Assembly (NCBI RefSeq): GCF_000011105.1
Contig: NC_000961.1
Span: 1,412,662 to 1,476,661 of the forward strand
Direction: 5' to 3'
Length of the DNA stretch: 64,000 bases
Source of the DNA: Pyrococcus horikoshii OT3
GTDB taxonomy: Archaea > Methanobacteriota_B > Thermococci > Thermococcales > Thermococcaceae
Shown: piece by piece, positions 1,089 through 35,507 of the stretch
How the letters are laid out: every line of letters begins with the position of its first letter
Position numbering within the stretch: position 1 is the first letter of the stretch
Position numbers and translations under genes: made by a program
Notes under the pieces: generated by a model
What the model was told of the DNA's origin: nothing
What the model saw: the letters and a program-made list of their open reading frames with translations, nothing else
The model's database searches: none

Positions 1089-1146
1089 GCCCTCAGAGGG
1101 AAGTCGGTCATCATGCATCAGCTCACTCCACTTCCAATCATCGGGC
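1089..1146 (-). ncRNA. C/D box sRNA (2'-O-methylation guide), 23S rRNA target predicted
   Basis: Reading the minus strand: terminal stem GCCC (1146-1143), C box GATGA (1142-1138), a guide, D' box CTGA (1121-1118), a 3-nt spacer, a perfect C' box ATGATGA (1114-1108), an 11-nt guide, D box CTGA (1096-1093), closing stem GGGC (1092-1089), then a T-rich tract. Size (58 nt) and spacing are typical of archaeal C/D sRNAs. The D guide CCGACTTCCCT is complementary to AGGGAAGUCGG, which I recognise as a conserved archaeal/eukaryal large-subunit rRNA segment; by the N+5 rule the first A of AAGUCGG would be methylated. The D' guide target is not assigned. The C box shares bases with the stop codon of the antiporter gene. 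Confidence 0.9.
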
Positions 1147-12754: not shown

Positions 12755-13504
12755 ATGATCATATATTTTATAGGAACTGGGGGAAGTGAAGGAATACCTG
12801 TCCACCTCTGTGACTGTAACACTTGTAATGAGGCTAGAAAATTCAGATTCGCTCAGAGAAGACCTTCAACCCTCGCTGTAATTGGAGAAAATGGGGAAGT
12901 AATTCTCTTTGATGTTGGAACGGATATTAGGGAATTCCTAAATGTTCCCCTCGACGCTATCTTCCTTACCCATTGGCATCACGATCACATTTATGGTCTC
13001 TATAAGCTCAGGTGGATAGCAAGGGAAACAAACCTTTACGCTCCAGAGGGGCATGCAGATGCTTTAATACTCCAAGATCCCAAGAATTTGAGACCAAAGA
13101 TAATTAAAGCTGGAGAGAAAATAAGGATCGGAGATATAAAGGTAACAAGCGTAAAATTAAATCATCAAATCGAGACCCTTGGATACATCATTGAAGAGGA
13201 TGGAAAAAGGGTTGCAATATTATATGACACCAAGGGTTTACCTCCCGAGACGAGAGAGTACCTGGAAGATATATCCCCACTTAGGGTTGCGATTGTTGAT
13301 GCAACGTATCCCCCAGGATTTGTAGATCCTTACCATAACAACGTTAATGAAGCCGTTGAGATGTCCATTGATATCGCTGAAAGAATAGTTCTAAGCCACA
13401 TCTCCCATAAAAATTTACCATTTCTGAAACTCGTCAACTATACGAGAAAAATGTGGGGAGGGAAAGTTCTTGTGGCCTATGATGGAATGGTTTTCTATGT
13501 ATAA
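12755..13504 (+). CDS. PhnP-like metallo-beta-lactamase-fold phosphodiesterase
   Basis: 249 residues. The metal motif THWHHDH (about 69-75) and downstream acidic/His residues (LYDTKG, HISHKN) define the beta-lactamase fold of the PhnP/RNase Z side. The N-terminal HLCDCNTCNEA cysteine set resembles the structural zinc site of PhnP. Likely hydrolyses a cyclic nucleotide-like or sugar phosphodiester; the substrate is unknown. Starts 25 nt after the DUF2079 gene, so possibly cotranscribed. Confidence 0.85.
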   Translation: MIIYFIGTGGSEGIPVHLCDCNTCNEARKFRFAQRRPSTLAVIGENGEVILFDVGTDIREFLNVPLDAIFLTHWHHDHIYGLYKLRWIARETNLYAPEGHADALILQDPKNLRPKIIKAGEKIRIGDIKVTSVKLNHQIETLGYIIEEDGKRVAILYDTKGLPPETREYLEDISPLRVAIVDATYPPGFVDPYHNNVNEAVEMSIDIAERIVLSHISHKNLPFLKLVNYTRKMWGGKVLVAYDGMVFYV

Positions 13505-13550
13505 TCATTAAGGCGAAAAAGAGATAAAGGTCCATTCAAAAGATAATAAT

Positions 13551-13650
13551 GCCCGACGAGTATTTGGGTTGCGATGACGTCGGGACCCCCAGGGGGCCGA
13601 CAGTTTACATGGCCCCCAAACTTTTTAACCCCGCCGGCGGTTCTTTTTTC
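13551..13650 (+). ncRNA. GC-rich structured RNA element, candidate ncRNA or leader
   Basis: A sharply GC-rich island in AT-rich DNA. Stem 1 CCCGACG (13552-13558) with CGTCGGG (13578-13584), loop containing GCGATGA; stem 2 GGGGGCC (13592-13598) with GGCCCCC (13611-13617), 12-nt loop, followed by AAACTTTTT. A competing fold pairs TTTGGG (13563-13568) with CCCAAA (13615-13620) and GTCGG with CCGAC. A further CCGCCGGCGG (13631-13640) precedes TTCTTTTTTC. A TATA-like GATAAAGG lies at 13523-13530, about 25 nt before 13551. In AT-rich hyperthermophiles such islands usually mark stable RNAs. It may be an H/ACA-like sRNA, another ncRNA, or a regulatory leader of the PP-loop gene starting at 13651. Confidence 0.7.
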
Positions 13651-14436
13651 ATGCTTAATAACGTCATAAGGGAACTTAAAAGGTTTGGAGAAGAAACTAA
13701 GATAATAAACAAGAGGATAATTTTAATGTTTTCTGGGGGAAAAGATTCCAGCTTAGCATTATATCTACTTAAAGAAGCTGGGTATAACGTTTCCGCCTTA
13801 ACATTCTTCCATAAATGGAGCTGGCCTGAAGTATTAAGGTGGGGAATGAAATTTACAAAAAAGCTAGGAGTTACGCATTATTTGATAGATATAACAGAAG
13901 GACTAAAAAGAGAAGCGATAGGAAGAAAAGGTCCAATATGCATTCACTGTAAGAAAGTGATGCTGTGGAATGCAAAATGGTTTGCAGTTAACAATGGATT
14001 TGAACTCATTGCAAAAGGTGATAATGCAAATGATAAGATCATTGGAACGCTCCTTGATCAATGCCCTGGAGACATTAGGATATGCGAGATCCCTAAGATA
14101 GGAATCCCAATATTCAGGCCACTAATAAAGTACAAGGCTAGGGAAATTGAAATGCTTACCAATGAAGCGGGAATAAAGCCTTATAGGATGTATGAGCATG
14201 GAAGGAGGAAACAGTGGAGAGAAGGGTGCCCGTTACAGTATATAGATGAAGACACCAGAATAACAGAAGAACTAATGGATCTAGCGTTCAGGGTTAACTA
14301 TAAAGTGAGCAAAATAGCGAGGGAGAGAAAAGTTAGAATAAGCGTTAGGGTTCCAAGCTTTGAGATAATGTGTTGGAACTGTGATAATGAAACTCTTAAG
14401 GAAGTGAAGAAAGTAATTAATAAGGAAACATTATAA
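13651..14436 (+). CDS. PP-loop ATP pyrophosphatase family protein (tRNA-thiolase-like)
   Basis: 261 residues from ATG 13651. PP-loop LMFSGGKDSSLA activates a substrate as adenylate, as in TtuA, TilS and PAPS reductase-type enzymes. Cysteine pairs CIHC (mid-protein) and CWNC (near the C-terminus), plus CPLQY, suggest a metal or Fe-S site. KGDNANDK occupies the position of the GHNxDD motif of tRNA thiolases. A role in tRNA or cofactor sulfur chemistry is inferred. The frame stays open upstream to 13549, but that extension would translate the GC-rich RNA element and looks unlike protein; another possible start is ATG 13726 just before the PP-loop. 3' end overlaps pdaD by 20 bp. Confidence 0.8.
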   Translation: MLNNVIRELKRFGEETKIINKRIILMFSGGKDSSLALYLLKEAGYNVSALTFFHKWSWPEVLRWGMKFTKKLGVTHYLIDITEGLKREAIGRKGPICIHCKKVMLWNAKWFAVNNGFELIAKGDNANDKIIGTLLDQCPGDIRICEIPKIGIPIFRPLIKYKAREIEMLTNEAGIKPYRMYEHGRRKQWREGCPLQYIDEDTRITEELMDLAFRVNYKVSKIARERKVRISVRVPSFEIMCWNCDNETLKEVKKVINKETL

Positions 14437-20591: not shown

Positions 20592-20636
20592 CGTTAGCCT
20601 TTTAAATTCCAAAATTTTAGTAATTCTGGCGGGCTC

Positions 20637-20693
20637 GTGATGAGCTTTCCCTACGGCCCGAGCTTAGGCGATGAGGAATACAGCCAGGGCTGA
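20637..20693 (+). ncRNA. C/D box sRNA candidate
   Basis: C box GTGATGA (20637-20643), 14-nt guide, D'-like CCGA (20658-20661), spacer, C' box GCGATGA (20668-20674), 15-nt guide GGAATACAGCCAGGG, D box CTGA (20690-20693), then TTTT. Total 57 nt and spacing fit archaeal methylation guides, and the segment is GC-rich against AT-rich flanks. A TATA-like CTTTTAAAT (about 20600) would start transcription near 20630, so it may have its own promoter. D' deviates from CUGA by one base. Guides are complementary to GCCGTAGGGAAAGC and CCCTGGCTGTATTCC; I could not assign targets. It ends 14 nt before the phosphoesterase ATG. Confidence 0.8.
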
Positions 20694-20707
20694 TTTTGGT
20701 GATATCT

Positions 20708-35419: not shown

Positions 35420-35507
35420 TGGTGCGGGGGCGGGGATTTGAACCCCGGAACCCCTACGGGACGGGACCCTAAATCCCGCGCCTTTGACCAGGCTCGGCAA
35501 CCCCCGC
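35420..35507 (-). tRNA. tRNA-Leu (UAG)
   Basis: 88 nt with encoded CCA (35422-35420). Class II tRNA with long variable arm (GTCCCGTAGGGGT). Acceptor GCGGGGG (35507-35501) pairs with CCCCCGC; anticodon stem CGGGA/TCCCG, loop TTTAGGG, anticodon UAG. Its 5' end is only 5 nt after the rpoD stop codon, so it is probably released from the operon transcript by RNase P. Confidence 0.97.

Follow-up and report, generated by a model that had tools for sequence, protein, structure and literature searches.

The closest described system is the small RNA sRk28 of Pyrococcus abyssi, placed at 527697-527833 with a 5' end at 527798 by primer extension (PMC3124441, Phok et al. 2011). It lies between PAB1991 and PAB1992, the latter being an ATPase with a QueC-like domain, and Northern blots revealed species of 70 and 100 nt that are hardly detectable in stationary phase (PMC3124441). 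Based on the QueC-like domain of this neighbour, a preQ1-riboswitch-like reading of sRk28 was suggested, and Phok et al. inferred that the RNA depends on the upstream gene (PMC3124441). In Thermococcus kodakarensis, sRk28 has been described as an orphan small transcript, and the gene located 3' of it has a separate promoter (PMC4247193).

The genome of Pyrococcus horikoshii OT3 is a single contig of 1,738,505 bp, of which a stretch of 64,000 nucleotides, hereafter the window, was analysed. A preliminary description made from its letters had singled out positions 13551-13650 as an island of strong GC content and a possible independent non-coding RNA. The composition is indeed unusual, with 66% GC in the 67-nt core (13551-13617, forward strand) against 41.5% in the window, and 67-nt stretches as GC-rich as the core number only four in the 64 kb, the remaining three being tRNA genes. 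The folding energy of the core is ordinary for its composition (z = -0.43); stability alone is therefore no evidence and was dropped as proof of an RNA, and the case is built on comparison. Upstream of the core lies a PhnP-like metallo-beta-lactamase gene (12755-13504), and downstream a TtuA-like PP-loop ATPase gene (13651-14436, forward strand), a neighbour whose PP-loop nature had been recognised correctly. Elsewhere in the window, the C/D box RNAs sR19 and sR58 are known at 20633-20695 (forward strand) and 1091-1145 (reverse strand), and a tRNA gene with a long variable arm (35423-35507, reverse strand, 49.2 bits) was missed by the whole-window Rfam scan and found by a local scan.

The island is almost certainly an autonomous RNA gene and the orthologue of sRk28. 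In genome G004, which we take to be P. abyssi GE5, the core occupies 527797 to 527730 of the minus strand, in agreement with the published position of sRk28, whose 5' end is at 527798. Counted from that mapped end, 70 nt lead to just past the second hairpin of the RNA (P3, see below), and about 101 nt to the end of a T6 tract, found in P. horikoshii at 13644-13649 (forward strand). By analogy with the lengths published for P. abyssi (PMC3124441), the species of about 70 nt would end near 13620 in P. horikoshii and that of about 100 nt at the T6 tract, which is the T-rich end noticed at the outset; positions 13551-13650 coincide almost base for base with the published 100-nt species. The placement of the core itself is based on a covariance model and on the P. 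abyssi 5' end (PMC3124441). The existence of the RNA was already known, and what is added here is its autonomy, its pseudoknot, and the rejection of the leader model.

Trained on 24 distinct sequences, the covariance model finds the RNA in 76 of 94 Thermococcaceae genomes, as a single copy in each and in all six genera, with a core of 66-70 nt; one of the 76 matches (G079) is a weak, decayed copy. The same search found no copy in 21 other genomes of the phylum. When the exact core pattern was searched across the genomes of 84,980 species, matches were confined to Thermococcales, and none occurred in the viral contigs or plasmids searched. BLAST with 13530-13660 returns strong matches within the same family, which outside Pyrococcus mostly end at about base 88 of the query (about 13617 in the window). 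Rfam 15 contains no family for this RNA, and the Rfam search that had been proposed yielded no match; permissive thresholds gave only chance miRNA matches.

Loss and decay are also seen. A decayed copy lies near a contig start in G079 (L160:96-160), another stands beside the expected genes, including a conserved divergent gene, in G059 (L147:1633-1691), and a copy with internal deletions adjoins this same conserved divergent gene in G052 (L158:1915-1958). These three are pseudogenes of a noncoding RNA. Genome G078, which we take to be T. sibiricus, has no RNA detectable genome-wide with the covariance model, nor at the expected place with filters switched off, and none was found in G075, which like G078 is a single contig. 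Altogether, the RNA is lost or decayed in about ten genomes, hence its job is not essential: it is useful, but not indispensable. Comparative material comes from genomes that naturally lack the RNA, T. sibiricus among them, and from the decayed copies.

An alignment of 59 distinct sequences (58 for P3) supports both of the 7-bp hairpins first seen in the single sequence, and the covariance analysis that had been recommended among Thermococcales uncovered compensatory changes in each. All elements are on the forward strand. Hairpin P1 pairs CCCGACG (13552-13558) with CGTCGGG (13578-13584); its sixth pair is C-G, G-C, or U-A in 43, 14, and 2 of the 59 sequences, respectively, whereas the other P1 positions are near-invariant. 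Its loop comprises a segment with a nearly invariant AGTA followed by 2-4 variable nt (13559-13565), and then a near-invariant stretch of 12 nt, GGGTTGCGATGA (13566-13577), with one substitution in 59 sequences. This stretch holds GGGT (13566-13569) and, as had been noticed, a GCGATGA element (13571-13577). After a linker ACCCCCA (13585-13591), hairpin P3 pairs GGGGGCC (13592-13598) with GGCCCCC (13611-13617), its sixth pair being C-G in 25 and G-C in 31 of the 58 sequences; its loop of 11-14 nt (13599-13610) starts with [G/A]AC[A] and is otherwise variable. The compensatory changes thus comprise three pair types in P1 and two in P3.

The GGGU of the P1 loop can pair with the ACCC of the linker (13585-13588), forming 4 bp compatible with hairpin 1. 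This pseudoknot is probable, with modest support from the alignment: its strands are almost invariant, and the three changes they show (one C to U, two A to G) are all one-sided and all leave a G-U pair. In the first 24 sequences, P1, P3, and the pseudoknot together are paired in 99.5% of cells, versus 37-62% for slid versions. Two competing folds had been proposed for this region, and a rival fold among the alternative pairings already noticed, GGGUU.CGAU/GUCG.GACCC, is possible and even the thermodynamic favourite in silico. However, 14 of the 59 distinct sequences disrupt the innermost pair of this fold, and hairpin 1 is paired in nearly all; the covariation speaks for hairpin 1, with which GGGU/ACCC is compatible as a pseudoknot. 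Modelled at 95 C, neither of the nested folds is stable, and if the pseudoknot is left out the secondary structure is marginal, which suggests that the tertiary pseudoknot, ions, or a protein must help.

Upstream regions aligned on the RNA (75, reduced to 32 that are each less than 60% identical to the others) share AA at -33/-32, a T-rich or TA stretch at -28 to -24, an A at -10, a T at -7, and only pyrimidines at -1, with little signal elsewhere. To judge from these positions, the signature is that of a canonical archaeal promoter with an initiator. In P. horikoshii, the BRE-like AA is at 13518-13519 (forward strand; 1.12 and 0.71 bits among the 32 regions), and the TATA-like box that had already been noted is GATAAA at 13523-13528 (forward strand; positions -28 to -23, with 0.8-1.2 bits each from -28 to -24), which starts 28 nt 5' of the RNA; A, T, and T stand at -10, -7, and -1. 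On these elements, the start is predicted at G13551. The promoter persists although the neighbours change, which argues for an independent gene. In many Thermococcus genomes (L105, L113, L099, and others), a palindromic element ACAAACTTCGCC...GCGAAGTTTGATCAA, with variants, directly follows P3 on its 3' side; it is possibly a terminator or a dispersed repeat.

The RNA adjoins the PP-loop gene only in Pyrococcus, where the two are co-directional in all eight RNA-bearing genomes. Outside this genus, the RNA is divergent from an uncharacterised gene of about 167 aa (c1) in 55 of 67 loci; c1 is typically followed by a small gene (about 89 aa) and then by a QueE-like radical-SAM gene, all on the strand opposite the RNA, while the genes downstream of the RNA are variable in these loci. 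The divergent pair of about 167 and 89 aa, conserved in L092 and 54 other loci, belongs to no known family and is unlinked from the RNA in Pyrococcus; searches of Pfam, NCBIfam, and PDB with c1 gave no match. Several candidate links between the RNA and a neighbouring gene were rejected. The RNA is present without the PP-loop gene in G001, G093, G049, and G056, and the PP-loop gene without an intact RNA in G050, G052, G054, G055, and G059, some genomes in these comparisons being drafts. Co-loss of the two is suggestive in one genus (g4), is contradicted elsewhere, and probably reflects one or a few events. All 74 good genomes carry the QueE-like gene, whether or not they have the RNA, and in Pyrococcus the two are unlinked; the proximity of this gene in other genera, where its transcription points away from the RNA, is a curious coincidence. 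As for c1, it is likewise unlinked in Pyrococcus and is kept in RNA-less genomes.

We regard as the probable account of these observations, taken as a whole, that sRk28 is an autonomous RNA acting in trans as a folded RNA with a protein partner, that is, as an RNP. It would be transcribed from its own BRE/TATA promoter starting at 13551 and would fold into P1 with its near-invariant 12-nt loop, the probable GGGU/ACCC pseudoknot, and P3. Extrapolating from P. abyssi, it would yield a stable RNA of about 70 nt ending after P3 and a form of about 100 nt ending at the T6 tract. The invariant P1 loop, the pseudoknot, which we infer to form in the cell, and the linker may constitute one surface read by a protein partner, with action in trans. 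Loop and linker are extremely conserved and covariation is confined to the stems, a pattern that fits such a binding surface.

The main rival is a trans-acting sRNA that would pair with mRNAs, using the exposed P1 loop or the linker as a seed. An autonomous gene, the growth-phase dependence of sRk28 (PMC3124441), and a near-invariant loop of 12 nt would all suit this explanation. Yet no perfect complement of the P1 loop recurs across Pyrococcus, and complements of this loop with one mismatch exceed the reversed-pattern control only slightly. Nor does complementarity to rRNA exceed that of shuffled RNA, the longest runs (12 and 13 nt, in stretches that include rRNA flanks) equalling the shuffled mean (12.3 each). 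Pairing with mRNAs is accordingly unlikely, though far from negligible, and the combination of a binding-surface pattern with the lack of a recurring loop target favours a folded trans-acting RNA with a protein partner.

Two further explanations tie the RNA to the PP-loop gene and depend on where that gene is transcribed. Immediately 3' of the RNA core lies a TATA box, CTTTTTAA (13621-13628, forward strand), identified by comparison with Thermococcus, where PP-loop orthologues that have no RNA upstream carry the same kind of box about 25-29 nt before the start. This same spacing places the start of the PP-loop mRNA downstream of the RNA, and the gene has its own promoter and a near-leaderless start at ATG 13651, which is its real start codon. 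Between the box and the start codon, a perfect palindrome, CCGCCGGCGG (13631-13640), is kept in all eight RNA-bearing Pyrococcus genomes; it is a possible operator. In the first of these explanations, the RNA would be promoter-associated, its form of about 100 nt reading across the PP-loop promoter in Pyrococcus and repressing the gene by transcriptional interference. A transcript of the published length (PMC3124441) would indeed cross the box at 13621-13628 and end at 13644-13649. As this arrangement is limited to Pyrococcus, it cannot explain the conservation of the RNA sequence elsewhere; interference is improbable as the function of the RNA and may be a local side effect.

The second explanation, and the published one, is that the RNA acts in cis on the PP-loop gene, as a preQ1-like riboswitch or leader; a switch-like leader had similarly been proposed in the preliminary description. 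In its favour are the co-directional adjacency in all eight RNA-bearing Pyrococcus, the pseudoknot potential, the weak QueC match of the neighbour, and the suggestion made for P. abyssi (PMC3124441). It is contradicted outside Pyrococcus, where the RNA does not precede the PP-loop gene and each occurs without the other, and by the gene's own promoter, which starts the mRNA 3' of the RNA and is also found where the RNA is absent. Furthermore, no Rfam preQ1 model matched 13480-13720 up to E = 10, and the neighbour is nearer to TtuA than to QueC: it resembles TtuA PH0300 and scores 30 bits versus a QueC equivalog cut-off of 150 bits. Finally, the QueE-like gene of Thermococcus is on the opposite strand, hence the RNA cannot be its leader. 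A leader function is decidedly improbable.

An H/ACA or C/D modification guide RNA, of which the H/ACA-like form had been considered early on, is a still poorer fit and highly improbable. GCGATGA resembles box C (RUGAUGA), the hairpins are GC-rich, and 25 of 75 genomes have an ACA after P3. However, GCGATGA deviates from the box C consensus, the ACA is absent in the other 50 genomes, and the variable P3 loop has no conserved bipartite pocket. By inspection, there is no positioned D box, and no opposed G-A tandem that could form a K-turn in either loop. No Rfam match was obtained, though sR19 and sR58 were detected in the same window, and there is no excess of rRNA complementarity.

The chance that the island encodes an N-terminal extension of the PP-loop protein is close to nil: the frame is open from ATG 13549, as had been pointed out, but this 295-aa ORF is a fortuitous extension, since the gap between RNA start and ATG varies from 100 to 104 nt and puts the RNA in all three frames among the eight Pyrococcus, in-frame stops occur in G007 and G008, only two of the eight are open as far as a start codon, and the Thermococcus proteins begin at the position corresponding to 13651.

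Having set these alternatives aside in favour of an autonomous trans-acting RNA, we tentatively raise the possibility, which we hold to be rather doubtful, that sRk28 typifies a class of its own among archaeal trans-acting RNAs, one whose members are compact and pseudoknotted, occur in Thermococcales only, differ from guides, riboswitches, and crRNAs, have a protein or ligand dedicated to them, and can be lost without killing the cell. A short RNA kept near letter-for-letter in six genera of hyperthermophiles has so far had no Rfam family, and the published preQ1-riboswitch suggestion would misdirect experimenters. Once the RNA is considered apart from the PP-loop gene, its action in trans can be put to the test in the genetically tractable T. 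kodakarensis.

Among known systems, sRk28 of P. abyssi shares with the RNA described here its locus, neighbours, and strand, a 5' end within 1 nt, and sizes of 70 and 100 nt that fit; pseudoknot potential was reported for it and is likewise proposed here, and its absence from T. sibiricus in published work has a counterpart in G078. The two accounts differ in that Phok et al. detected no promoter and took the RNA for a preQ1-like element derived from a 5'UTR (PMC3124441), whereas we describe a conserved autonomous promoter in a non-conserved context. The sscA/sRk33 RNA is also a conserved small RNA without known function in Thermococcales, but it was ruled out as the identity of this RNA because its locus is different: it lies in the 5'UTR of EF1-alpha (PMC4247193) and is listed apart from sRk28 (PMC3124441). 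Archaeal H/ACA sRNAs have GC-rich hairpins in common with it, and in some genomes an ACA; their defining pocket, ACA box, and K-turn are not those of this RNA. The preQ1 riboswitches, for their part, are likewise small RNAs with a possible pseudoknot, and in Pyrococcus the RNA is near a gene with weak QueC similarity. They are distinguished from it by the lack of any covariance-model match, by the lack of a conserved downstream gene, and by its independent transcription.
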